DNA of 64,000 nt, taken from NCBI GenBank assembly GCA_950295325.1, contig OX485803.1:71749554-71813553 (forward strand), read 5' to 3'. The stretch's first letter is position 1, and each line of letters opens with the position of its first letter. A program made the translations under genes and the position numbers. Under the pieces are notes generated by a model. It was not told where the DNA came from and did not search any database. It saw nothing but the letters and a program-made list of their open reading frames with translations. The DNA is from Polytrichum commune. Taxonomy: Eukaryota > Streptophyta > Polytrichopsida > Polytrichales > Polytrichaceae. Positions 4,029 through 60,489 of the stretch are shown one piece after another.

Positions 4029-4077
4029 ACTACCTGAGACACGTTTGTGAGATTTTAGGGCAGGAGCAGGAGCAGCC

Positions 4078-4590
4078 ATGACAACCGCATGGACATCCTG
4101 GCCACTCACGATGATTGTGTCTGTGATGAATCTGCTCTTCATTACCTCAATGGTCGTAGCTGCGCAGCCACCTGAAGCTGCGTCGGATTATACGGGTCTG
4201 GTGGACATCTACAACTATGTGGGGGATCCGATCACAGTTCACTGCAAGGACCAATTCACCGATTTGAAGCCGCAGAGTATTGCCCACGGGGCGGACTACA
4301 CCTTCAAAGTGCAGCCCAACCGGGAAGAAACCACTCTCTACACCTGCTCCTTCGTGTGGGGGCTCAACATGTCCCAAGAGTTTCCTGTCTGGAGAGGGAG
4401 CAGCTATCAAGACTCTTCCATCTGCGGAGCTATGGCTTCCAGGAAGTGCTTGTACAAGGCCACCCAGAAGGGCATCTTCGTCGCCACTTCCAGCATTCCA
4501 GTGAATCGACCGGAGGGTGCCTCTACTTGGGTGCTTCTCAGGAATTGGATAAGTGCTGCAATGAGCTCAAATAGCCAGAATTCGTCATGA
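4078..4590 (+). CDS. Plant self-incompatibility S1 / S-protein-homologue (SPH) family, secreted
   Basis: A single-exon frame of 170 residues, as usual for the S1 family of small secreted plant proteins. Poppy PrsS is the female self-incompatibility ligand of that family, and most other members have unknown signalling roles. Residues 1-29 look like a signal peptide (hydrophobic run around MNLLFITSMVVAA, cleavage probably after Ala29). The mature part shows the family pattern: DIYNYVGDPITVHC, then the SIAHGADYTFKVQPN turn, TTLYTCSFVWG, and a late pair of cysteines in SSICGAMASRKC. The four cysteines (56, 90, 116, 124) fit the two disulphides of the family. The ATG at 4,078 is chosen because it alone gives a complete signal peptide and follows a TATA box. 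It lies between U2 units on the same strand, with no sign of linkage. The family call is good; the function is unknown. Confidence 0.8.
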   Translation: MTTAWTSWPLTMIVSVMNLLFITSMVVAAQPPEAASDYTGLVDIYNYVGDPITVHCKDQFTDLKPQSIAHGADYTFKVQPNREETTLYTCSFVWGLNMSQEFPVWRGSSYQDSSICGAMASRKCLYKATQKGIFVATSSIPVNRPEGASTWVLLRNWISAAMSSNSQNSS

Positions 4591-25908: not shown

Positions 25909-26981
25909 GTGAAAAGACCTTTTTTGGATGTAATTGCAGTTGGTGAGAAGTCTGATTTGGAAACAATTTCATTGTCTAAATTGAGTGTAATTAAGAAAGA
26001 AAACCTAAACGACTACATTACAAAAATACACAGTGACAAGTTTGGTTGGTGTTCCAAATGCAAGACATTGAAGCACCTTCATGATGTACATGCAATCGAG
26101 ACCAAGTCTTACGCAACATATCAATTGCATTATTTTAAGCATGTGAACATGCAAGAGGAAAATCATAATGATTATTACACAAATAAAGCGTAGTCCGTCA
26201 CTAGATCATTGGAGGTGCTCAAGGTCATTCATGACAAAATGGACCATGCCAAAATATCCTCATCATGTTTTGCGTAACGAATCAAGGCTGCATACAATCT
26301 CTTTGAGCTACTTGTGTGAGTCACATGTATGGTTCTTTGTGGATTCTCTCCAACATCTTATAGCTAGTTCTTTATTTTGTGGGGTTCCACAATTCTATAT
26401 CTTTGTTATGGTACTTAGGAACATAGGTATAATGGATTTGGATTCCTTACTTGACAATGAGTCTTTGGGTTGTTTTTGTAAGGATGATTGCTCATGTCCA
26501 TGGCAATGTCAAGTTTGTCCATTATGCTCTTGATTTGTTTCTAGCGGACTCAAAACACATCATTCAATCATTTGCATAGCTTTTGCATGATTTGGAGAAA
26601 TCGCCCACATACTCTTCAATTAGGTGCTGACTTCAAAGCATTTATAGAACTATTCTTTGGAATAGTGCTCACTATCAAATTGGGCACACAAAGGCTCAAC
26701 AAATTTGGTTTTATATGCGTGATGTTTGTATTCCAACCATGCGATACAAGATGTTGTGTAGAACCAAGATTGGAGCCCACTGGAGGGTTTTATTGTTTGG
26801 CGCGTTAACAAGGAAAGTAAGACAATGTTACTAGATGGGGAGCCCAAACCTTGTAAACCAATACCCATGAAGAATGTGGATGATATTATAAAGATCATAT
26901 CAAACTTCATACAATACTTGGATCATCTACGGGTAGTAGATGTTAGTGGATCATTTTGCCACCAATATGGGACTTGGATAG
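25909..26981 (+). pseudogene. DUF7869-like gene relic, left half (interrupted by the giant element)
   Basis: Plus-strand fragments line up in order with the intact minus-strand copies elsewhere in the window: WCSKCKTLKHLHDVHAIETK (zinc-like CxxC), KVIHDKMDHAK (equivalent of IIHDKMDYGK), GHTKAQQ...FYMRD near 26,690, and DGEPKPCKPIPMKN near 26,840. Homology runs to the target-site duplication and resumes at 51,915. Stops and frame changes show that it was already decayed or decayed later. This is the DNA into which the 24.9-kb element inserted. Confidence 0.75.
26973..26981. repeat. Target-site duplication, left copy
   Basis: CTTGGATAG directly before the left terminus; the partner at 51,906-51,914 is TTTGGATAG (8 of 9 identical). 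With one copy removed, the flanking relic reads on without gap against its paralogues (WDL-DR... against WDRIRS...). Confidence 0.75.
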
Positions 26982-27741
26982 GGATCTCCGTATTTTAGTG
27001 CTACGAGCGTTTGTAGGACGCCTCCCGCGGGCAGCGTTCATGCTCGGGCAACCCGTTCCTGTCCTCCCGACCCGACCCGTCTTACCTGCCCAACTTGGCC
27101 TTCCTGCCCGACGCGGCCTTCCGCCTATCCAGCTGTCCACCCGTCTGTCCATCCGACCGTTCATCCGTCATATCCGTCTCCACCACTACCCCACACCGAA
27201 CCCGAGCTCCGTCATTCTTCCTTGCTCACGCCATTAGACAGCTCCGGAGCGAGTGAGGAAGTTGGGGAAAGGTTGTTGCATTGCTAGTTTAGGGTTTGGA
27301 AGAGTTGTAACTTTTATCGATGTTGTCTTAGTCGCCCGCCATGGAGGTGGACATTGTGGATCTGAGAGGGAAATGTGTATCTTTTGAAGAAGGGTTTGAT
27401 TTTGTAATAGAGGAGGCCACGGAAGATCTACAGGACGGACAAGATTTAGTTTTAGATCTGGAAATTCTTCCGTCATTCTTCTGTCATTCGTCCTTGCTCA
27501 CGCCACTGGACAACTTCGGAGCGAGTGAGGAAGTTGGGGAAAGGCTATTGCATTGCCAGTTTAGGGTTCGGAAGAGTTGTAACCTCGTTCGATGTTGTCT
27601 TAGTCGCCCGCCATGGAGGTGGACACCGTGGATCTGGGAGGGAAATGTGTCTCTTTCGAAGAAGGGTTTGATTTTGTAATAGAGGAGGCCACGGAAGATC
27701 TACAAGACGGACAGGGTTTAGTTTCAGATCTGAAAATTCTT
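26982..27741. repeat. Left terminal inverted repeat
   Basis: Matches 51,905-51,164 inverted. The outer 250 bases include a C/G-rich block of GACCCGACCCGTC and CCGTCTGTCCATCCG words. The left copy has an extra 18-base duplication (CTTGGCCTTCCTGCC region near 27,095). The inner 500 bases are two tandem units that each contain an ATG in GCCATGG context. Confidence 0.85.
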
Positions 27742-28103: not shown

Positions 28104-28289
28104 ACAAATGGTCCGCTCATTTTAATGTGGGGAACGTGATGGGAACGCAATGATTGATTTTTTTGTACGAGAGAATACCCGTAGAGGTTTTAGCCTCCAC
28201 AAACCAAGTGTTCCAATGAAACCGGGCAAACAATCAATTGTAATATGGAGGATCCCATCAAGGAAGACAAAAGGATTGTGCCTACACTC

Positions 28290-28307
28290 CATGGGTGAAC
28301 ACCCGTG
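28290..28307. repeat. Palindrome copy (one mismatch)
   Basis: CATGGGTG-AA-CACCCGTG, the outermost left copy of the element-specific palindrome family. Confidence 0.7.
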
Positions 28308-28574
28308 GACTATTAAACATTGGACGACATTGGACGACTCCCACATATTAAACATGTTGGCTAATATGACAATGCACATGAAAATTCACAAAAAAAGATG
28401 CCTTTAAAAGTGGTAGTTTGAACATCCGTGGGACAAATGTCAATGTCTACGGCTCTCTAATTAATGCTCACAAAATTAAAATTGAGCTCCAAACATGCTA
28501 GATGGTGTCAACCATCTAGCCCACCCATGAGAGTCCACCCGTAGATACCCAGGAATGAGCAAGGCAACTTTAAT

Positions 28575-28787
28575 CTAGAGGTCTTCTGTTGGTACCCCAT
28601 CCTCGAAAGTATCTCCATCAGTCATTTTCTCACCTCTAGTGCATCGATCTAAATTATCCTTTGCGAAAAGAATTTGCCGAGCTGGGATGAGAACATTGTC
28701 ATCGGACGCATTCCTTTGTCTTGCCCATGATGCCACAACACAATCTAGGGATTGATGTTGTGGTGCATAGTCCTTGAGCCTCGTCCA
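28575..28787 (-). pseudogene. Conserved C-terminal tail of the DUF7869-like gene after an in-frame TGA
   Basis: Directly after the TGA at 28,790-28,788 the same frame stays open for about 70 codons to a TAG at 28,577-28,575. It matches the tail of the 62.6-kb paralogue: SWARQRN...VLIPARQILFAKDNL against AWKPRKG...MTIPQKHIDFAKDNL. So either the stop is a recent nonsense mutation or it is read through. In the paralogue the codon at the stop position is AAG. Confidence 0.7.
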
Positions 28788-31554
28788 TCAAAAAGATTTT
28801 GCCGTGTCCCATTCCTCATAACGTTCGTCTAAGGTCTTCTTGTTCCTTTGGCCAAGGACCGGTACATAATAGACAATCTCAATGGAACGAGGATTAGGAC
28901 CGATATGTGCCAAATTCGGCTCAGAAATCACTCGTCCCATCCACACTGGATTAGGACAATCCTCACTAGGACGTAGTAACACATAATGGCCAATCCTGAT
29001 ATGTGCGCCGGGACGGAAGGTCTCAACAGGTCGAGAACTAGCTGGCCCCACGTAAGCATAATCAGTGATGTTTTCCTCAAGTAGATGCACATTATCCACA
29101 TGGAGGGTTGGTGCAATGGAGAACCGTGTAGCTGGCCAGAATGGCTCGCTAAGTTCAGATGGAGTTGGGAGTAAAGGTTGATCCATAGCCGCAAGCACAT
29201 TCTCCCAATATAAAATTGTTGGTGCAATGGACTCCATATATTGACCCGAACTATCTTGATCTGCCGTATCCTTCCAATACTTAATAAAACCTTGCACCCC
29301 AAGCTTTATGTTCACGGAATCTTTCATCTCCCTTTTTGGAACGGGACGGGGGCACCCTACAAAAACAAACATACAATGAGCTCGGAGCAATACCACGGAC
29401 TAACTGCCCACGGGTGATCACCCGTGGGCCACATACTTCACACCATGTATTTTCTAGTGCACTTCCAAAGCAATACAAACAAGGGACCCACTAACCTGTT
29501 GGGACCATGGTCTTCTTTGTGATAGGGTCCACCTTCCAAAGAGCAATTCCTCCATCAGGCACCCAACTTGGATCTGTACAATACACTTTGTACTGCATCA
29601 ATGGCACTCCTTGAGGATCTACATAAAAACGGAATTGGTGCGCCTTGGAATGCCCAATAAGTCGATCTTGACCATACTCATTGTAGTATCCCTTCACCCA
29701 TTCCTTGAAATCTGCAACCTCGTGGATTAAGGACGGGACAATAGTGGGTTCCCCAGCAGCCATGAACGATGCCATGAGGTCTGGGAGTGTATGGCAATCC
29801 TCAATCTTCAGCCTTTGTCCAAACCTCCCAAACATTGCATCCACATCCTCATGCGTATGTCCAACAATAAGGAAAGACACCCTGACTTCCCGAAAAATTC
29901 CCTTTGCAGTCAGAGCTGACCAAAACAACATGTTGTATTTTGATTTGTTGTCCTTCGCACAATTGTCCATTTGAACAAGGAGGAGGGGTGGCAAACCTGT
30001 AGGAGGAATACTTGCGGGCGGTGGCAAGGGAAGTACTCCTGAACACTTCTCTACACCAACCACCAATGCGTCGTGTAAAGGATCACCTATGGACGAAATC
30101 GGAATGTGTCTACTAGAGCAAACAGGTTGTACCTCAAGTTGACAAAGCAACTTCATCATCGAGGTGATAGTGAAGTTGGCATCGGATGGGTACATATCAA
30201 GGACATAATGCGCATAATTCACATCTGAGTGACCATGTGCAATCATCCCCGCAATGGATATGGGGAATCGCTCGTATTTGTCAACACGTTTGTTTTTGTG
30301 CGCGAAGACGGGAAGAGCCGTTTTCCCATAATCCATTTTGTCATGGATTATACAAAGCACCTCATTGGGAGCATACTTTGACAAAATCCTATCTTTATAG
30401 TAACTGTTTCTATGAGCCTCCTGCAATGTTAGATGACGAAGGCTAGCATTCGAGATGGCCAAGTGACCAGTTGTGTTCTTTGTGTGTATTCGCAACAAAT
30501 CCTTGAATGCTGCACAAGTTCCACAACGCGAGAAGTTGTCGCCGGGGCTCTTTATAACATACTGCTTGAAATGTTGTCGATGTAGGCGGCTGAAGGTGGA
30601 CGTGGAGATAGGCGTGTACCCTAGGTCTCCGTCCAAGTTGTTCACTTCCTGCAATAGGTTGCACCACGTTGTTCCCACAGGGAGCATCTCCGTCCCTATC
30701 TTCTCACCAGTTGGAAGAGTCCGAGTCATATGGGGCATGGCGTCCGCCCTACCCTCAACCAATACTCCAAGGGTGGCTCGTGCTTGCACTGTATTCGCCC
30801 GTGGTTTTCTAGTTCCTGTATTTCCATGATCTCGAGATCTAACCCCCATCAAGCTTTCAGCCTTGTTCCTATTATATTGTGCCCTTGATATCATATAGAT
30901 GTTCATCCATGCTCGAGTGCATATTGTTCTCCCTTCCAACTGCACCATTTCACGTCCGTTGTGCTCATGTTTCTGGATCGATTGGAACACCGACAGGGCT
31001 ATGAGCTTCCGAGCATTGAATGGCAATGCGAAGTAGTGTTCCCGAATACTCATCAACAAAGGCCTTGGGAATACCTGGCAACAATGCTCGGAACAACAAT
31101 CCACCGCTGATAACATCCGCGCATGCTCCTCAGTGGCTCCCCAAATTTTCTTCCCAGGTGGCCGAGGTGCACACATCCTCACAGTGTTGTATTGGCGTTT
31201 TCCAAGCAAGCGCCGATGACTTTGAACTTCGCGGGTCGCATTATGATGGACCAACAATATTTCCGCTAATGTATGTCCTTCAAATTTGGTGAGTGAAAGT
31301 GGCCATCGGTGCAGCGTATTCTCCCAATCTTGCGAAATAACATTGTCAGTTGGGTTCAAGATAATAACTCCAACATCCTCAGCCCCTAGGATGCTATTGT
31401 CAACACAATCCAACGGATTTGTGTTGCAAATCAATCCATCACACAAAGCATGGCCCTCATCATCAAAGAGCACAACGGCCTTCCCCTTCAAGTCCGTCCT
31501 CGACAGTCCAATGTAATGTGGAATCTGAACATCGATATCAAAGTATGTCAACAC
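28788..31554 (-). CDS. DUF7869-like protein, candidate transposase of the giant element
   Basis: Two joined exons on the minus strand: 31,554-29,496 (first exon boundary uncertain) and 29,356-28,788, with a GT-AG intron of 139 bp (29,495-29,357) whose splice gives ...VPTG-CPRPVP, aligning with ...VPDG-EPKPCK in the uninterrupted paralogue at 62.6 kb. Marks, numbered from 31,554: DCCSEHCCQVFP at 152-163 followed by REHYFAL and ICTRAW (a CCx3CC...ICxxAW arrangement known from eukaryotic DUF7869 proteins), SRCGTC at 342-347, IIHDKMDYGK at 402-411, VQMDNCAKDNK at 527-537 and VGHTHEDVDAMFGR at 564-577. The spaced Asp residues in HDxMD, MDN and HEDVD suggest an RNase H-like catalytic triad (inference). 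The start is unclear: the frame opens after a stop in the palindrome at 31,571, so an upstream exon is expected. Palindromes sit in the intron and just upstream. Confidence 0.72.
29406..29429. repeat. Perfect 24-bp palindrome inside the DUF7869-like gene intron
   Basis: GCCCACGGGTGA followed by its reverse complement. It is the only copy with an AT centre and so the only strictly perfect palindrome. Confidence 0.9.
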
Positions 31555-31570
31555 ACATTGACCAGAAGCT

Positions 31571-31588
31571 CACGGGTGTTCACCCGTG
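31571..31588. repeat. Palindrome copy at the 5' edge of the DUF7869-like frame
   Basis: CACGGGTG-TT-CACCCGTG; exact core. Confidence 0.9.
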
Positions 31589-32084
31589 GGGGACAACATT
31601 GACATCTCAAGAGAATATTTACATTCATATAGGGGTGAGCTTTACACCTCACTTCACACAACTCAAGTGAAGTATGTGTTACTTATCATATCCCCATTGG
31701 GAGAATGACCCTTATTACCAGTTTCCACAAAGCCCAAACACCAAAACTATCACCCCTAACACTTACTTGTGTACAATTATTACTATGCATGTAGGTGTCA
31801 CATCTGCTGGCCCAAGTGCTAGCGAAATAGTTGCCATTCAGGATAGTGTCAACATTCCAGTTTAACGAATATCATCGTCATCATTTATCATAATGCATCA
31901 CGAAACTCCCAACTCGTAATAATATGTACCAATTACCCATTGACAACATATTTCACATACTCAGCAGGAAATTTACAAATAAGCATAATTGCATATACAA
32001 CTATTGAGTATGTCACACACATGATACATGCCTATCTTATAACCACACATATGTAGGGAGAACTAAAATACAAATCATGAACTG

Positions 32085-32384
32085 CCACGGGTGAACACCC
32101 GTGGGGGCTTCCATGCTGGTGCCGGATTCTCCCACGGGTGTTCACCCGTGGGAGGCTACCATGCTGACATCTACTACTAGAAAGTTTGTCACACACATGA
32201 GCATATGGATAACTTCTATTCTGACATATGCTAGGATAACCGAAATAAAAACCATAAGCTCCCACGGGTGAACACCCGTGGGGGCCCCAAACCGGGTGCC
32301 AGAGTCTCCCACGGGTGAACACCCGTGGCAGACTGGCCGTACAGGAGGGGTACGGCCAGAGTGTTGTCACGGGTGCACCCGTGG
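32085..32384. repeat. Cluster of five palindromes upstream of the DUF7869-like gene
   Basis: Exact cores at 32,086 (AA centre), 32,133 (TT), 32,263 (AA) and 32,310 (AA), plus a spacerless CACGGGTGCACCCGTG at 32,369-32,384. The two AA/TT pairs are each about 47 bases apart, the same period as in the 44-kb array. Confidence 0.9.
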
Positions 32385-39191: not shown

Positions 39192-39222
39192 GGGTTTAGG
39201 GTTTAGGGTTTAGGGTTTAGGG
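39192..39222 (+). repeat. Interstitial telomere-type array 2
   Basis: Four TTTAGGG units; the same junction to repeat R (GGG-TTATTTATTTC) as in array 1. Confidence 0.88.
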
Positions 39223-44020: not shown

Positions 44021-44444
44021 TCAAATTTCTGGTGCACTAGGGTTTGAATTGCTTGAAGAATTTCAAACCCAGAAATACTAGAGATTTGCATGTGAGTTGT
44101 GTGATGCTTGGGTGTGAAGAGTTGATTGAAATGTGAGAAAAATGCTCAAATCAGAATGCAAGATGAATGACAAGAGGTTATGTTCATAAAAATGTGAGAC
44201 CAGATTGCAAGAAGAATGTGAGGGCAGAATTTACCTATTGAGATGTTTGAGAGTATGAATGTATTGCACATGTAGGCATAGTTTGAAACAATAGCTCTTG
44301 TGTTTTGTTTTGTGCAGGAAACCACATTCGTATTGAAAGAATTTTGACATGGTCCCCCCAAAGAACCCTGGTGAGTGTCCATTACATAAATCCCAGTTTT
44401 TCTGTTAGTGTGAACGCGGTTATCTGAAAGTGGATATTTGAAGT

Positions 44445-44610
44445 GCCCACGGGTGAACACCCGTGGGCTTTTGCACCCACAAGGTGGAGAGGCCCACGGG
44501 TGAACACCCGTGGGCCTCTCCCCCCATCCGGTTGAATGTGCCCACGGGTGTTCACCCGTGGGCTTTTGCACCCACAAGGTGGAGAGGCCCACGGGTGAAC
44601 ACCCGTGGGC
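44445..44610. repeat. Palindrome array A (four copies)
   Basis: Exact cores at 44,448, 44,495, 44,543 and 44,590, centres AA, AA, TT, AA, each extended to GCCCACGGGTG...GGGC; the second reaches 30 bases (GAGGCC...GGCCTC). The period is 47-48 bases. Spacers alternate between TTTTGCACCCACAAGGTGG-type and CTCTCCCCCCATCCGGTTG-type. The array lies in the last leader intron of the H3-mimic gene. Confidence 0.92.
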
Positions 44611-44855
44611 AGTGGTGATTCTTCACAAGGTCCCTAACATGTCCGTGGTCACATGTCGACATCTTCGTTTTTTTCTGTTCTTTTTTCCTAATTTTGTACC
44701 AACTTGAGGGAGACTTAACTTGTATAGATATTACCGGTTTCGGGACGGGTTGAGATTTTTTTGCCTTTCAATTCAAGGTTTTTGGACGTGGACGAGCTAA
44801 AACTTTGTGAAAAATCAGCCCTCCCGTGGGCCTCTCCCCTCATCTGGTTGAAAGT

Positions 44856-44975
44856 GCCCACGGGTGTTCACCCGTGGGCCTTTGCACTCACCTGGTTAGG
44901 AGTGCCCACGGGTGTTCACCCGTGGGCCTTTGCCCTCACCTGGTTAGGAGTGCCCACGGGTGTTCACCCGTGAGC
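44856..44975. repeat. Palindrome array B (three copies)
   Basis: Exact cores at 44,859, 44,907 and 44,955, all with TT centres, exactly 48 bases apart. Spacers are CTTTGCACTCACCTGGTTAG-like. A half copy (CCCGTGGGCC) is at 44,823. Same intron as array A. Confidence 0.92.
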
Positions 44976-45153
44976 CTTTGCACTCACCTGGGTGGGAGAT
45001 TTTGTTTGATAAATGTCTTTTTGATTTTCTATGTAGACAAATTTGGTGTGTCTCTGTAAGCATTTGAAGGTTTTAGACATAAACATGTGATAGACAGTTG
45101 GTGTTTCATTCAGGTACATAGAGGTGTCGAAGTGTTCTCTCATTTGAATTGAG

Positions 45154-48100
45154 ATGGCAAGAACTAAGCAAACAGCCCGTAAAGGTATAACCACAATACC
45201 TATGTGCACGTCAATGTTATATGAGTTATAGAATCCGTGATAATATTGGGCTATGCTGAATACTTACATGTGCATTGTCTTCTGCAGTATCGGGAGGTGT
45301 GGGCAGACGGGTGAATTACGATGTTGAAGTTTTGGGCCCAGATTTGCAATGGTTCATGCAGTATAGTGGTTTCGGAGAGACAACGGTGCTCTCGCTTTAC
45401 ACGAGGACTGGGCCCAATTCCACATGGAGAAAGTACATGAAGGCAAAACATGTACTGGACATTCAAGCGGATGGGAGCCGGGTATTGATAATGTGCAAGT
45501 CGCCTGAACGGAAGAAGGACTTCAAGGTTGCAGCACTCGTGGAGACTTTCTCATATGCGGATGTGAATGAAGAGCTCAACAATGAGGGAGAGAACATCCG
45601 CTTATTGAACGGTGATTTCCTCACCTATTGTATACTATATTGCGAGACCAATGTGCACACGAAGTCCGTGGAGGAGAGGTCAGTAATGATCGAGCAGGAC
45701 TACAAGTCTGCTCTAGCACGAGTGAAGGTTATAGTTGAGGAGGCAAAGGCGGCAAGGTTGGAAGCATCTTTGAAGAAGAAGGAAATCCGCGATGGCAAGA
45801 GGAAGGATCTTGCTGATGTACGTGCCACCTCGTCTAGGAAGAAGACGAGACCCGATGAAGGACAACCACTGATTGTCGAAGACACTGACGGCCAGGATGT
45901 TGTCTCCAAGAGAGGCAAGAAGAAAACACCTGAGGATAGTCCATTTCTTGAACTCGAGAAGATTCCCAAGCGATCAATGCATGGGCCTCCAGACAAATCG
46001 GTTGGAGACAGGTTGATGGATATGGAGTTGTTCAAGAACAAGTACCAAAGGGTGTGGATATTCGGAGCATTCTGGTCTTTATCGCGAGGTTGAATCTGGC
46101 CAAGCGGATGTTCCGCGGGATGCAATCATGTCTGAAGCTGTGCATGTTGAAGTGACAAACACAGATTTGAACGTCAGCTCACCTGTTGAGGACGTTGCCG
46201 CTGCCGTTCTCGAGGTGCTAGGACATGGGCGATCAAATCGTGATTCACCTGGTGTTGTGGTTGCAGAAGAGCCTACTGTAGCGGCACCATCCAATGAAGC
46301 AGAGGAGGTTATTCGAACCGAAGTCATATGCTTGGATAGTGATGACGATGTGCCCGAAAGATGCGTAGAACTAGACGTGAGGGTGAAGGTGAGAGATCGA
46401 GTTCCACATCGGATTCGGGGGACGTTTGCGGACTACATGACGGATGATTCCGAGGATGAGGATTATGGGAAGCCTGGGTACAACAGAGTGAAACTCAACT
46501 TTGTTGATGACCCTCACCCGGTGTTTGCTGGGAGACCTGACATGGGCAAGGAATCGGATGGGAAGGACAAGGTGCATTTTGCCCCATTTGTGGACAAATA
46601 CTTGGTAGATGTGCCCGAGAACGTGCGATTGAATCTTGCGCATTTGTACACGTCGTACGATTATCACAAGATGTTCGCTTATCTCTCCACACCAGCGTTT
46701 TGTGAAGCAGTGAAGGTGAAACATATTCTTCATGCCGCTGCATTAAAGAAAATGAGAAAGAGATGGACAGCGTTCGAAGCTCCCAAACATCGTGATGAAC
46801 GAGGTCAATTCGCGGGGTCCTCGGCCGCTCAAGCCGGCAGTGTTGTGGACTCTACGTTGGAGATCATTGACATTACTGGAGTGCCAGAGTCTCCAAGGAG
46901 GGAAGTCGATGTTGCAGTTGCGGAGTCCTCAAGCCCTCATGTCGAACGTGTTGCTGAGGGTCAACCGGCATCGTCCGAAATGGTAATACATACTCCCTTT
47001 CCAATGCTATATTGTGTTTGGCGGTGGAAGCAAACTCGTCAAGATTTCTAAAAGTGTCTTTGCAACAGGTGTTGGTTGCGGCAGAACGGGATGTCATTCC
47101 ACCGAGTTCTCATGACGACCCTGCACATGGTGGGGATCCCCCCCTAAGCCAAGCTCAAGGTATCATATATAGTGTTATTTGAATGCAATTGGTCCCACGG
47201 GTGAACACCCGTGGGACCACCTGTTTATACTTTTCAATTTCCATACAAATTGTTATCTCTCGAGTAATATTTATATAAGGGACTTTTGATATTGTGCCCA
47301 CGGGTGTTCACCCGTGGGAGATTATGGGTTTGAGCGTGTGGATCTCATAAGTCATGTGTGCATGTGGTCACAGGTCATACAGCCACTGCCGGAATACCAC
47401 CTTCGGTACGATATTTTCCTCGATCTCGCAAAACTAATCCATAAATGTGGAGGCATTCTTTTATCTTGCATACTCATGTGTACCCAACGTGTTGTTTCAT
47501 TCGATAAAAATCATGTAGAATATACTTTTTCCTTAGATAGAAATTCTTTACAATGACTTTCAATTTTGTCATCGCCAGATCCTCACCTCTCCAACCACTG
47601 TTGTCCATCGGAGAGAGAAGATATGGTTAGTGCTGGATGTGAACGGGATCCTGGTGAGGTCAACAAAGTGCGACAATGTCAACACCAGGAAGACTCTTGA
47701 ATCACAACATAGCCCTCAGATAACTGGGGAGTTGGTTCCACTTTTTCTCCCATATAGTGCCCTCATACCTAGGAGAGGACTGGGACGCTTTCTGCGTTTT
47801 GTTCTCTCAAACTTCCATGTTGTCATCTGGTCGTCGAAGCTTATGAAGAATCTTCAGCCAATTGTCCGGCACTTCTTCAATGGTTGTAGACATCCAGAGT
47901 ATGTGTTTGGGCAAGAATTGTGTCACACTCTGAAGGATGAGAGAGGACAAGTTCTTCCTAGTCCTATGAATGCTGATTCAAGCTTCTTCATGAAAGACCT
48001 GTGCGCATTTTTTGAGTGGAGCCGGACGCATCCAGTGCCGCATACGAAGCAACCCAGTCATAGGACTACATTACTTGTTGATGACTCCCCTTACAAATGC

Positions 48101-48361
48101 ATCCCAAACCCTCCTGGGAGCTACATTAACCCTGTACCATTTATGTCAAACCAAAGCTTGGATACTCTGCATAGTTACCTGCAAAGGCTCTTGAGTTCTC
48201 AACAGTATGTGCCAGATTTTGTGGGGAGCAACCCTTATCCATCAGGACAGGGACCCTTCAATCTAGAGCTGCCAAGTTCTCTGATTTATAAGCAATCATT
48301 AGTTAGACATAAAATACTGACTTCTGCCCGTATGGTTCCAGAGGCTCAGATGTTAATGTAG
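45154..48361 (+). CDS. Histone-H3-tail mimic fused to FCP1/NIF-like HAD phosphatase domain
   Basis: Five coding exons: 45,154-45,184, 45,288-46,982, 47,069-47,159, 47,374-47,405, 47,579-48,361; all introns GT-AG. Exon 1 encodes MARTKQTARK and ends in phase 1; exon 2 continues VSGGVGRR. Residues 2-10 equal H3 residues 1-9. An in-frame TGA three codons upstream fixes the Met. Then come a Lys/Arg-rich helical stretch, basic NLS-like runs (SRKKTRP, KRGKKK), the SUMO-interaction-like VICLDSDDD and IIDIT, and a C-terminal FCP1/NIF domain: WLVLDVNGILV, VVIWSSKLMKNL, LLVDDSPYK. Such domains dephosphorylate the RNA polymerase II CTD or other proteins; here motif I is DxN where active enzymes have DxD. 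Exon 2 needs either a +1 shift near 46,020-46,090 or removal of 88 nt (46,001-46,088, weak donor). Exons 2-5 are otherwise in frame. Function unknown; nuclear chromatin role inferred. Confidence 0.68.
47191..47218. repeat. Palindrome in intron 3 of the H3-mimic gene, first copy
   Basis: 28 bases: GGTCCCACGGGTG-AA followed by the inverted arm. Confidence 0.92.
47297..47318. repeat. Palindrome in intron 3 of the H3-mimic gene, second copy
   Basis: CCCACGGGTG-TT and inverted arm, 103 bases from the previous copy and with the opposite centre. Confidence 0.92.
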
Positions 48362-48603
48362 ATTCCCTATTGGGGCCGCCTATAGTGCACATTTGCACTA
48401 TCGGTACATTGTATTTGAAATGAGTGGATCTGAAACTTTGTTGCCTTTCAACTTCATTTGAAACTTGTTTTGGTTTTGTGGATTTTCTTCATGCAAACAT
48501 GTCATGGTCATGAATGTATCTCACTGGGAGTCTACTACTTTGCAACACTGCGGTGTTAGAGAATACCCGACTATTTCCGACCACAGTGAATGTCTGGCAT
48601 TGT

Positions 48604-48624
48604 CCCACGGGTGTTCACCCGTGG
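48604..48624. repeat. Palindrome downstream of the H3-mimic gene
   Basis: Exact core 48,606-48,623 with TT centre, about 240 bases after the stop codon, probably in or near the 3' UTR. Confidence 0.9.
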
Positions 48625-48629
48625 CAATG

Positions 48630-49043
48630 TGGTAGTTGATTCAATGAATGTATCAGGCCACTTGGACAATGTTAGTTGTGTTTTTGGGAATTATGGTTGT
48701 CATAGCGAATTTTAATATGTAGGACTTAGTCGGCTATAATTCATATGTTTTGAACATGTTCATCTTTACTAAAGGGCAACGGACGGGCTCCTCTTGCACA
48801 TAATGTCCTTCTTCCATGGACTCTTATGTTATTGTATCCTAACAGCATTCCCCATTCCAAACGCGACCTAAGAACTATATTGCCAGTCCACCATGTCGAC
48901 AACGTCCTCCGGATGCTAACGCCGACTTCGCCGAAGTGACATCTCCATGCCCTAAGGTAATTCATTTTCCACATGAATCCCAATTTTTTTAGTTGTGTTT
49001 CATCCCAGGGATTCTAATATCAATTTGTCGTTTGTTGTGGTAG
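48630..49043. other. Non-coding or undetermined exons between the H3-mimic gene and the next frame
   Basis: A stretch ending in CCATGCCCTAAG-GTAATTC (about 48,955) could be an exon (frame ...PPDANADFAEVTSPCPK) splicing to the acceptor GTTGTGGTAG at 49,043. The upstream part has stops, so the structure is uncertain. Confidence 0.35.
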
Positions 49044-49430
49044 ACACATATGCTCCAAACACACGATGTTGCGCTCGCGGTTGCGGTGGCTGTTCCGGTC
49101 GCGGTTGAGAAGGCTGTTCCGGTCGATGTTGCGGGTCCGGTCACACGCGCTCGGGTGAAGAGACACCTTTCTCTCCAAACCACTCACCCCAATGAGCCCA
49201 CGGGCTCGGGAAATAGTTCTCGATGTTGGAGGTGTAGTTCACCCAATACCACCTCATCCATGTCTGATTACGTGGCTGCAAGGGTGAAACAACTTCGAGA
49301 AGCTACAGTTTTGATGGAGGAGAAAAAACGGCTTGAAGAAGTCAAGCGCAAGCAATGTACTATAGCTCAAAGACAACCTCATGACAAGATGTTGAAAATG
49401 ATTAAGGATTCATACTCCTCTTGTAGATAG
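49044..49430 (+). CDS. Possible terminal exon of a small unknown gene
   Basis: Open for 126 codons from the ATG at 49,050. The N-terminal part is a Val/Ala/Pro repeat (VAVAVPVAVEKAVPVDV), low complexity at the DNA level. The C-terminal 60 residues are charged and helical (VKQLREATVLMEEKKRLEEV), likely a coiled coil. A splice acceptor TTGTGGTAG directly precedes it and an upstream exon can be joined in frame. I recognise no family. It lies on the same strand, 0.7 kb after the H3-mimic gene, with palindromes on both sides, so it could be a second cargo gene. Confidence 0.35.
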   Translation, partial: THMLQTHDVALAVAVAVPVAVEKAVPVDVAGPVTRARVKRHLSLQTTHPNEPTGSGNSSRCWRCSSPNTTSSMSDYVAARVKQLREATVLMEEKKRLEEVKRKQCTIAQRQPHDKMLKMIKDSYSSCR

Positions 49431-49455
49431 CCGGACCTTTATGGTGATAGATTTT

Positions 49456-49475
49456 CCACGGGTGTTCACCCGTGG
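49456..49475. repeat. Palindrome after the small 49-kb frame
   Basis: CCACGGGTG-TT-CACCCGTGG, the last exact core, 25 bases past the stop codon at 49,430. Confidence 0.9.
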
Positions 49476-49639
49476 ATACAACAATTCATATACTTTGTTC
49501 ACATTTTTTGTGCCCACTGTGGCATCTATGATTCAATCAAATGATTTTTTGACCCTCATTTGTGTAGTCGGATATGATATGTAGACCTTCCTTCATGTGT
49601 TATGGATCTTGCATCGTGTGTTGCATGGCGTTGATTGGT

Positions 49640-50917: not shown

Positions 50918-51292
50918 TCAACGATTGCATTGCACTCGCCTTCCACCACCAAAATTTGTGCCCTTTGACGCGTCCAACCACAGGACACAAAGATTATCAT
51001 CTTTGTCCATAGCCAACATATCCAAGCAGGCGTTCCAGAAACAAGCTCTCATCCAGGACGAGGCCTCAGCCTGCATGGCCTCAAACCCATTGCATGTCCT
51101 CATAACTTCCAGATCGGAAACTAGCATGTACAATCGCCTGTCCTCATAATCGTCCATCCTGGCAAGAATTTTCAGATCTGAAACTAAACCCTGTCCGTCT
51201 TGTAGATCTTCCGTGGCCTCCTCTATTACAAAATCAAACCCTTCTTCGAAAGAGACACATTTCCCTCCCAGATCCACGGTGTCCACCTCCAT
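50918..51292 (-). CDS. Candidate inward-facing first exon from the right TIR
   Basis: Minus-strand frame of 124 codons beginning at the ATG of the inner TIR unit (GCC-ATG-GAGGTGG context): MEVDTVDLGGKCVSFEEGFD, then VIEEATEDLQDGQ, and outside the TIR a further coding-like stretch (CNGFEAMQAEASSWMRACFW, LDMLAMDKDDNLCVLWLDAS). I recognise no family. In Mutator elements the TIRs hold the promoters of the internal genes, and this layout would fit, but no downstream exons were found. Confidence 0.35.
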   Translation of the reverse strand: MEVDTVDLGGKCVSFEEGFDFVIEEATEDLQDGQGLVSDLKILARMDDYEDRRLYMLVSDLEVMRTCNGFEAMQAEASSWMRACFWNACLDMLAMDKDDNLCVLWLDASKGTNFGGGRRVQCNR

Positions 51293-51905
51293 GGCGGGCG
51301 ACTAAGACAACATCGATCGAGGTTACAACTCTTCCGAACCCTAAACTGGCAATGCAATAGTCTTTCCCCAACTTCCTCACTCGCTCCGAAGTTGTCCAGT
51401 GGTGTGAGCAAAGACGAATGACAGAAGAATGACGGAAGAATTTCCAGATCTAAAACTAAATCTTGTCTGTCATGTAGATCTTCCGTGGCCTCCTCTATTA
51501 CAAAATCAAATCCTTCTTCGAAAGATACACATTTCCCTCTCAGATCCACAATGTCCACCTCCATGGCGGGCGACTAAGACAACATCGATAAAAGTTACAA
51601 CTCTTCCAAACCCTAAACTAGCAATGCAACAACCTTTCCCCAACTTCCTCACTCGCTCCGGAGCTGTCTAGTGGCGTGAGCAAGGAAGAATGATGGAGCT
51701 CGGGTTCGGTGTGGGGTAGTGGTGGAGACGTATATGACGGATGAACGGTTGGATGGACAGACGGGTGGACAGCTGGACAGGCGGAAGGCCGCGTCGGGCA
51801 GGTAAGACGGGTCGGGTCGGGAGGACAGGAACGGGTTGCCCGAGCATGAACGCTGCCCGCGGGAGGCGTCTTACAAACGCTCGTAGCACTAAAATACGGA
51901 GATCC
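51164..51905. repeat. Right terminal inverted repeat
   Basis: Inverted match of 26,982-27,741, with only two of the start-codon units. The outer 100 bases differ from the left by a single base that I can see. Confidence 0.85.
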
Positions 51906-51914
51906 TTTGGATAG
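51906..51914. repeat. Target-site duplication, right copy
   Basis: TTTGGATAG; see the left copy at 26,973-26,981. Confidence 0.75.
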
Positions 51915-52510
51915 GTTATTGGACACATGTTTGTTTTGCTTTGATGGACCTTCACCAAGATAGCCCCCTTCTTTGAGGCAAGGTTTTTGGCCACAAAGTC
52001 ATGTGGATGTCCATGGGATCTTGGGAGGCTAGGCTTTTGGAGAATAGGGAGGTTCACGAGGAGTTCAATGAGGACAACCAATACATTGGGCTTGCTAGTA
52101 ATCGTCCCCCACTGTCGTTTTGTGTTGTAGTGGATTGTCATGAAGGGTATATGCAAATTTTGTGTCATGGAGTTGAGATATATGCTAAACAAGTGTGGGT
52201 GGTAAGAACTTTGTCTCAATCTAATTTTATAGCTTCTAGTCCTCGTTTTTGACAGAGTCAAGTGCAGTTTACTGACCAACAACACAAAATGAAGATGTGA
52301 TTCGTCATTACACATGCGGGGATACAAATCATAATTTTCGTTGGAGGTTGGTTTTTGAGCATGGTTCAAGTTTGATAGATACAAATTCCATATTTATAGC
52401 ATGAAAACCATTGAGAAATCATAGTGGGTCACTATTCATCTCTCAAAAATACATTTTACTTGCAAAAGACAACCTTGCTCGCCTCGTGAGGATTTATGCC
52501 AATGGTAACT
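51915..52510 (+). pseudogene. DUF7869-like gene relic, right half
   Basis: Continues the 26-kb relic: RQGFWPQSH (against TQGFWPQSR in the 62.6-kb copy), EEFNEDNQYIGLASNRP (against EEFAMDEHYVGPARNRP), VDCHEGYMQILCHG, KQVWVVRTLSQSNFIASSP, HNFRWRL, and the tail LLAKDNLAR at 52,465-52,490. Stops and frame changes show that it is dead. The tail shows that the ancestral protein ended with the AKDNL motif, like the 62.6-kb copy. Confidence 0.78.
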
Positions 52511-52988: not shown

Positions 52989-53398
52989 CACGGGGAGGTC
53001 ACTCCATTGTCAAGTTGAAAACCACGTGCAAACAAAGTTTGCTACCCCTATATTATATGCCATAGATAATTTTTAAGATTATGATATTTTTCTATATATA
53101 CATATCCATTGATAATATCTTTTGCATATTTTTTTGAAATTTCTAGTCATCTCCATTTTTTCTAGTAATTTGTTTAGTTCAATTTTGCATCATTCTAGTT
53201 AGAAACAATATGTTTTCTAGAATAAACATATTATCAAATTTGGTCATCAATTTTTACTATGTAATAGATACCATGTATATGTACTCATAAAAAAATTTTG
53301 ATAAAATTTTGACCCATTTTGTTGATGCAACTTAGAAAAAGTAGATTTTTTTTGTTCGCACGTGGTTTTCAACTTGACAATGGATTGACCTCCCCGTG
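52989..53398. mobile_element. hAT-like MITE (410 bp)
   Basis: CACGGGGAGGTCACTCCATT at the left and the inverted CAATGGATTGACCTCCCCGTG-type end at the right form a roughly 40-base inverted repeat with few mismatches (shared core AAGTTGAAAACCACGTGC). It is flanked by an exact 8-bp duplication TTCATTGA (52,981-52,988, 53,399-53,406). The interior is AT-rich and non-coding. Confidence 0.85.
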
Positions 53399-54907: not shown

Positions 54908-55440
54908 GGGTCACTTCACACACAAGCCAAGAGCTGTGACCATAAAATTGTGAGAGCCCAAAAGAAAGTGTCCAAAGGCCATCCTAAGACACTTCAAAAT
55001 TCATGTGGTGTGGTCACGGGTCCTCAAGCGTAGTGTGAAGTCCTATGTAACCGGGCCCTTAACCAAATGTTATTTAAAATGAATTTGTATCCATGCAGGG
55101 TCCTCACACATGTTAAAATATAATAAATCGATGGTTGTGAGAATTGGAGTGCCATGATCTCCTAGGGGGTTGTTTTGTGTTAGGCCTACCTCCAAGAGGC
55201 GGTTTTTGAAAACAATCCTAGCATGATCCATTTGCCATGTAGGAATGAAACATGGTCCATTTGATGCCATGTAGGAATCCATGTAGACAAGTTTGTGTTC
55301 ACCTTGCAATTTCAGTTACTCCATTGGTCCCTCATGCGCAGTATGAAGCAAACTTGGACTGGCTCCGCCTGTTCTACCAATGAGAGTGCTTGAAGTGTAG
55401 TGGTCACGGGCCCTTAATCTTGTAATATGGAAAGTGGCCC
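54908..55440. mobile_element. Harbinger-like MITE 3 (533 bp)
   Basis: Begins GGGTCACTTCACACACAAG, ends AAGTGGCCC, with TTA on each side (54,905-54,907, 55,441-55,443). It is the reverse-complement relative of the element at 17,879-18,377. Confidence 0.8.
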
Positions 55441-60085: not shown

Positions 60086-60088
60086 TAA

Positions 60089-60482
60089 GAGCATCCTCAG
60101 TCGGTCTAGGTAAAGCTCACTGCAAACCAAAACCTATCTTCTGACTGACCTAAAATTAGAAACTGAAATTACCATCATTAGAAGCACACCTAAATAAACG
60201 TGAGATATTTCTCAAGAAAAAAGAATTGTAAAAATTTGACGTAGGTGAAATCCCTCATTGAAAACACCACATTTTCAAAATTTAGAGGGAGTGCACCAAA
60301 TCTTGCTTAAAAATGGAAAGATCCTCCCACACTCCCTCCAATTTTTTGACATTTAGAGGGAGTGTGGGAGGATCTGTCCATTTTAAGCAAGATTTGGTGC
60401 ACTCCCTCTAAATTTTGAGCAATTTTAAGCAAGATAGGTCTTGGTTTGCAGTGAGCTTTACCTAGACCGACTGAGGATGCTC
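60089..60482. mobile_element. Fold-back MITE with nested hairpin (394 bp)
   Basis: Terminal inverted repeats of 52 bases with one mismatch (GAGCATCCTCAGTCGGTCTA and inverted), flanked by TAA on both sides (60,086-60,088, 60,483-60,485), so Harbinger-like. A second inverted repeat lies inside: 60,284-60,339 against 60,355-60,409, about 55 bases nearly perfect around a 15-base loop. The transcript would fold into a long hairpin. Confidence 0.88.
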
Positions 60483-60489
60483 TAAGCAT

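Follow-up and report, generated by a model that had tools for sequence, protein, structure and literature searches.

A predicted histone H3-like N-terminus encoded by the first exon of a transposon gene in Polytrichum commune

Why should a gene carried by a DNA transposon begin with the N-terminal residues of histone H3, which enzymes of chromatin silencing read, and do these codons represent a genuine protein start? This question is raised by a locus in the window, i.e., the whole stretch of 64,000 nt of Polytrichum commune DNA that was analysed. From the sequence alone, the first-pass annotation had described a start codon followed by ARTKQTARK, an in-frame TGA upstream of it, a phase-1 GT-AG intron, and a second exon with VSGG, and each of these elements was confirmed by reading the sequence. 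The coordinates of the features are compiled in Table 1.

Translation from the ATG at 45,154 yields A R T K Q T A R K as codons 2 to 10. An initiator Met before Ala is removed, and as far as can be judged from the sequence the H3-like residues are thus situated at the N-terminus behind a removable Met, with a second case given by the relative P0071. The donor reads AAAG/GTATAA at 45,185, the acceptor TTCTGCAG ends at 45,287, and the phase-1 junction codon is GTA, which places V at H3 position 10 and is followed by SGGVGRRVNYD; exon 2 opens with VSGGVGRRVNYD. When all GT and AG sites of the window are ranked by simple, home-made splice-site scores, intron 1 has its donor at the 99th percentile and its acceptor at the 98th. 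Due to in-frame stops in intron 1, exon 2 is reachable by splicing only.

In a six-frame scan of the 64 kb, ARTK, TKQTA or QTARK occurred at a single place, which is exon 1. The expected number of chance occurrences of MARTKQTARK is 4.3e-9 (64 kb, both strands, base composition of the window) or 6.7e-5 per Gb, in good agreement with the earlier statement that a chance match is very unlikely. A tblastn search with histone H3 matched residues 1-10 exactly at exon 1 with an E-value of 0.19, the match being too short for BLAST alone, and the next match (E 0.60, 43% identity) is located elsewhere; a longer H3 stretch or pseudogene was not evident in the window. A histone-fold core was not found after the tail, the H3 query being exact over residues 1-10 only. 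SNAG is not letter-for-letter H3 sequence, and judged by eye no SNAG consensus is present at the N-terminus, where the sequence is the H3 tail itself.

A second potential first exon, starting with MVPPKNP, is situated further upstream. Exon 1 was considered as an internal exon following 44,349-44,370 and rejected, as that phase leads to a stop at the fifth codon past the join. Thus exon 1 must either hold the start, at 45,154, or be skipped. In sum, the gene model with a start in exon 1 is well supported.

Table 1. Location of the transposon, its genes and its repeats in the window
Feature	Position	Strand	Basis
Whole DNA transposon, ~24.9 kb	26,983-51,906	.	TIRs + 9-bp TSD
Target site duplication (TSD), left copy TTGGATAGG	26974..26982	+	perfect 9-bp repeat abutting TIR
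Left terminal inverted repeat (TIR), internal subterminal repeats of about 260 bp	26983..27741	+	self-comparison
7 palindromes around DUF7869 gene; two pairs at 47-bp spacing upstream of DUF7869 gene	28288..32329	.	sequence
Second gene: ORF of 692 aa with DUF7869 (PF25273), candidate transposase	29491..31569	-	Pfam E 2.4e-46
Potential other first coding exon, or else an upstream ORF (MVPPKNP, donor GTGAGTG, phase 1)	44349..44370	+	sequence; donor 98.4th percentile
7 palindromes in two clusters (4 and 3), 47-48 bp spacing, directly 5' of H3-tail exon	44446..44974	.	sequence
In-frame TGA 5' of start codon	45145..45147	+	sequence
Exon 1 (MARTKQTARK, then G), exact match to histone H3 residues 1-9	45154..45184	+	sequence; same ten residues in P0071
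Intron 1, phase-1 GT-AG, 103 nt	45185..45287	+	sequence, splice scores, relatives' acceptors
Conserved part of exon 2, with [V/A]SGG linker followed by a predicted PH-like domain, a coiled coil and a basic region	45288..46066	+	55 relatives; fold prediction
Later exon of same gene, frame +1, with VICLDSDDD	46065..46985	+	25 relatives; tblastn coordinates
Out-of-frame continuation to stop after deletion junction	46067..46093	+	P0004 comparison
4 palindromes in later introns / 3' part of gene	47194..49476	.	sequence
Exon with NIF/FCP1-like phosphatase domain (PF03031), probably same or next gene	47578..48361	+	Pfam E 4.6e-11
Right terminal inverted repeat	51164..51906	-	self-comparison
Target site duplication, right copy TTGGATAGG	51907..51915	+	perfect 9-bp repeat abutting TIR

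Relatives were collected from a database of predicted reading frames, mostly derived from unspliced DNA. The exon-2 reading had 40 relatives at E<=1, an alignment of exon-2 relatives yielded 55 at E<=0.01 (15 of them new), and the next reading frame (46,017-47,051) had 25 relatives, resulting in a family of 80 different predicted proteins, 55 of which belong to exon 2. All 80 are derived from contigs marked jgi, ena or lgn and come without a precomputed Pfam domain. MARTKQTARK joined to VSGG was absent from all matches of the searches whose queries contained the spliced tail. For most relatives the ORF begins inside intron 1 or exon 2, and hence exon 1 is beyond its reach.

Among all collected relatives, an N-terminal ARTK, KQTA or TARK was observed in one case, P0071 (494 aa), which starts with MARTKQTARKGITTVPMCTSML...STVSGGMSRAVNYDVEV and has MARTKQTARK as its first residues. 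Intron 1 of P0071, with a length of 102 nt as counted from the protein, is free of stops, and for this reason its open reading frame extends into exon 1. Exon 2 of P0071 is 79% identical to that of the window (204/259), and due to the presence of MARTKQTARK in both, the tail exon predates the divergence of these two copies. Paralogues without exon 1 had been named beforehand as a finding that would speak against the H3-tail gene; in the single readable relative the opposite was seen. At the start of the intron, 11 of the first 12 codon-equivalents match between P0071 and the window, and farther in the frames do not correspond, as expected of an intron. As tail and intron start are conserved to about the same degree, the conservation of the tail in P0071 is weak evidence for selection.

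The splice acceptor can be followed in more relatives than the tail. In all 11 relatives that read visibly into the intron, the intron residue preceding residue 10 is T, A or S, each of which is possible as NCA followed by G, and therefore a CAG acceptor is compatible with 11/11, in line with the splice claimed at 45,288. Under the assumption that exon 1 of the relatives ends in G, ten of these 11 have V as residue 10 and one, P0069, has A, in support of the earlier claim that Ser10 is replaced; the claim that K4 and K9 are kept holds as well. Histone H3 has S10, T11, G12 and G13 at the corresponding positions. In the 16 pattern-selected relatives, positions 12-13 are GG in 15 and GA in one, a count biased towards GG because the selecting pattern demanded G and then G or A at these positions and missed other sequences; position 11 is S in 11, P in four, and H in one of the 16. 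With the register of G12-G13 kept in exon 2, the likeness to H3 extends slightly past exon 1. In P0073, exon 2 runs into a coding-looking WKEFTTCLMWT..., where others show a WKV donor read-through; this sequence perhaps derives from a transcript in which intron 2 has been spliced out but intron 1 kept.

Identity of the relatives to exon 2 of the window ranges from 100% (P0004, 252/252 residues up to 46,066) down to about 60%. P0004 continues with 216 more residues without match in the window, about 175 of which are family-conserved, and the matches of P0044, P0045, and P0064 start at 46,065 in another frame. From this end point and these other-frame matches it follows that the copy in the window lost the middle of the gene and changed its frame. 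The frame shifts behind residue 270 (Met included) and runs into a stop at 46,093. Read in this way, the copy is an internal deletion derivative, from which no more than a truncated tail-PH-coil protein of 278 aa would be expected. Being deleted and frameshifted, it is not itself a good copy for function, and any function belongs to the intact relatives, which exist.

The relatives extend beyond exon 2 of the window into a conserved region with VVNGQHTLAAC, presumably resembling a ParB/Srx DGQHR-like motif. For this part the motif resemblance to ParB/Srx was found in the absence of a Pfam or PDB sequence match, and the structural model is poor (pLDDT 44). The N-terminal domain of exon 2 is predicted to be PH-like, with a candidate PH/PTB/FERM-F3 arrangement; a Foldseek search with the exon-2 model had no match reaching E 0.001. 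The protein body was scanned with Pfam in the reading frames of the window and in 26 of the 80 relatives, with nothing above the cut-off (best E 0.0047, one member, Secretogranin-3). NCBIfam likewise gave nothing above it in four of the 80, and PDB sequences had no match to P0003 or alignment A1. Relatives were found neither in IMG/VR (0 from 111 pattern stretches) nor in GTDB genomes (0 from 13 stretches), and the exon-1 pattern had 0 matches in IMG/VR.

The VICLDSDDD of the later exon is taken by us to be SUMO-interaction-like. In the NIF/FCP1-like domain, the first catalytic motif reads DVNG with Asn in place of the usual second Asp, and thus this phosphatase-like domain may be inactive.

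The claim that the gene belongs to a transposon was substantiated by terminal inverted repeats and a 9-bp target site duplication. In a self-comparison, which pairs 26,982-27,741 with 51,164-51,905, the inverted repeats of ~750 bp are identical in 728 of 760 columns (95.8%), and their tips differ by two bases; the chance of finding any such duplication no more than 6 bp from both ends is about 6e-4. Inverted repeats flanked by a 9-bp direct repeat delimit a defined transposon that holds the H3-tail gene. This gene, on the plus strand, and the DUF7869 gene, on the minus strand, are situated in opposite orientation, and the DUF7869 protein is the likely transposase. A target site duplication of about 9 bp is typical of Mutator-like elements (MULEs), and the duplication observed here has this length. 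A MULE transposase domain was not among the scanned part of the 98 listed ORFs of the element, where DUF7869 was found instead.

The inverted repeats carry repeated ATG-led ORFs (MEVD[T/I]VDL[G/R]GKCVSFEEGFDF) at 27,332-27,679 (+) and 50,918-51,301 (-). The latter extends past the inverted repeat, comprises 127 aa from stop to stop, and has no Pfam match above the cut-off.

A 22-bp palindrome, CCCACGGGTGWWCACCCGTGGG, occurs in the window in 18 copies with up to 3 mismatches, all of which (18/18) are located inside the element; none was found in 100 shuffles. When the repeat list is relaxed to 65% or more, two further weak copies appear inside the element and one 69% match outside of it at 55,009. 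Elsewhere, the palindrome was not found in IMG/VR (0 matches), and a single Streptacidiphilus stretch in GTDB genomes was taken as unrelated. Read-through peptides place the unit after exon 2 in P0004, P0005, P0069, and P0070, in case of P0069 twice (48 nt). Moreover, the peptides HGCSPVG or HGRSPVG in P0044, P0047, and P0049 suggest, at the level of the protein only, that the unit is present within a coding exon as well, which makes it less like a pure non-coding site. A confinement of the motif arrays to the non-coding parts of the element, as in the VANC type, is thus observed in the window, with the peptides of these relatives pointing to a coding unit in addition.

Other features were also encountered in the window. 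A MITE-like element of 410 bp (52,989-53,398) has inverted ends of 49 bp (96%) and an 8-bp target site duplication, TTCATTGA. A short element at 60,088-60,483 has inverted ends of 53 bp (98%), and a search for its target site duplication of 5 bp or more found none. An ORF with a plant self-incompatibility protein S1 domain (PF05938, E 1.8e-13) is located at 4,051-4,590. TTTAGGG is the plant telomere unit, and a run of it occurs near 39,193; this run and the S1 gene point to a land plant as host.

We consider it somewhat more probable than an even bet (about 0.55) that a regulatory protein encoded by the element truly begins with exon 1 and displays an H3 N-terminal mimic, probably at the element's own palindromes. 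To judge from its letters, the tail is likely to act in histone mimicry. Intact family members would be translated and, upon removal of the initiator Met, would present an exposed, free ARTKQTARK-[V/A]-SGG end imitating H3 residues 1-13, joined via a short linker to the PH-like domain, the coiled coil, the basic region, and, further on, a large C-terminal part that is conserved. The protein would most likely act on the element's own DNA, i.e., bind the palindromes, which form clusters upstream of both genes and also occur in introns. At these sites the tail could engage host readers, writers or erasers of the H3 tail, and either soak up or block H3K4/K9 enzymes as an anti-silencing decoy or bring an H3-tail binder to the transposon. 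Having V or A as residue 10, the tail would offer a K9 site without the Ser10 phospho-switch. The effect might run in the direction of anti-silencing, targeting or recruitment. Only tentatively do we suggest a sequence-tethered anti-silencing factor on the palindrome arrays, where dense H3K4/K9 decoys would divert H3K9 methylation or its readers; by analogy, such a decoy would combine VANC-like targeting with viral-style histone mimicry, a combination which is possible but still doubtful.

A serious rival is the capture of an exon without function: the start of a host H3 gene would serve only as a start codon and leader and persist by recency. Plant transposable elements do capture pieces of host genes (PMC13317346), and in P0071 the intron after the tail is nearly as conserved as the tail, with no excess constraint visible. 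On the other hand, the similarity comprises ten H3 codons only, breaks off at a clean donor, recurs in a relative whose exon 2 has diverged by 21%, and is followed by a maintained GG register in exon 2; together with the lack of an evident longer H3 stretch in the window, this makes functionless capture rather improbable in our view, if deserving of attention. A coincidence of ten residues at a start codon, with 4e-9 expected in the window and 7e-5 per Gb, is ruled out by this expectation for practical purposes, and its second occurrence at the same place in P0071 renders it vanishingly improbable.

The sequence facts that argue for the regulatory protein apply equally to a targeting role, in which chromodomain or PHD proteins of the host would recognise the tail after its methylation at K9 (or K4), so that the element complex might be carried to chosen chromatin for integration or the element might be kept quiet. 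ARK-V/A fits the broad H3K9-methyltransferase motif [GCSAKLN]RK[TGQSVMALNKER], which accepts RKV and RKA and was derived from the animal enzymes EHMT1/2 (PMC10611923); nevertheless, we regard targeting as unlikely. Less credit still is given to exon 1 being untranslated or minor, with another ATG as the main start, e.g., that at 44,349 joined to 45,288 to give MVPPKNPVSGG, and the tail isoform absent or rare. An exon at 44,319-44,370 indeed possesses good splice sites at its two ends, and its in-phase junction with exon 2 could result in a tail-less product, but the donor at 44,370 could also use a strong acceptor ending at 45,113, leading only to a short upstream ORF terminated ahead of the H3 ATG. 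Furthermore, the ten-residue match to H3 in an unused frame would be a coincidence and yet recurs in P0071, making this start quite improbable.

If the regulatory protein with an H3 mimic is real, it joins histone mimicry, known from viruses and host repressors, with the transposon anti-silencing of VANDALs. A mobile element would then attack the H3K4/H3K9 step itself, which is testable with a short natural peptide, ARTKQTARKVSGGVGRRV. Moreover, antibodies against H3K4 or H3K9 marks could recognise H3-tail transposon proteins. In a search of the open-access literature, with subscription papers and preprints outside its scope, a transposon-encoded H3-tail mimic was not among the matches listed.

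By layout, the H3-tail protein is comparable to VANC of the VANDAL (MULE) transposons of Arabidopsis, likewise an element-encoded second protein. VANC21 motifs form tandem repeats in the introns of VANC21 and VANB21 and upstream of VANA21 and are dense only in the element (PMC5735166), similar to the short motifs in introns and upstream regions observed here, which are palindromes with a spacing of 47-48 bp. In contrast, the VANC21 motif consists of nine bases and is non-palindromic, the available part of the same paper mentions no H3 tail for VANC (PMC5735166), and VANDALs are described as non-TIR MULEs (PMC13317346). Pack-type gene capture by plant transposable elements also leads to a host-like exon inside a transposon, but here ten codons only are concerned, and these serve as the first exon of a large conserved gene family. 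Like the SNAG repressors GFI1 and SNAI1 with LSD1, of which the SNAG domain of GFI1 fills the substrate pocket of LSD1 as an N-terminal H3 mimic (PMC5896174), the tail would occupy an enzyme of the H3 tail; unlike the H3-tail gene, SNAG repressors are animal host factors and not part of a mobile element. The viral histone mimics are the counterpart as regards a selfish element whose protein imitates the H3 tail, e.g., ARSK of influenza NS1 and ARKS of SARS-CoV-2 ORF8 (PMC10208167). These viral motifs are, however, short stretches of four residues, in NS1 situated at the C-terminus, and belong to viruses of animals and people (PMC10208167), whereas the H3-tail protein would carry its mimic, with nine exact residues, at the very N-terminus.
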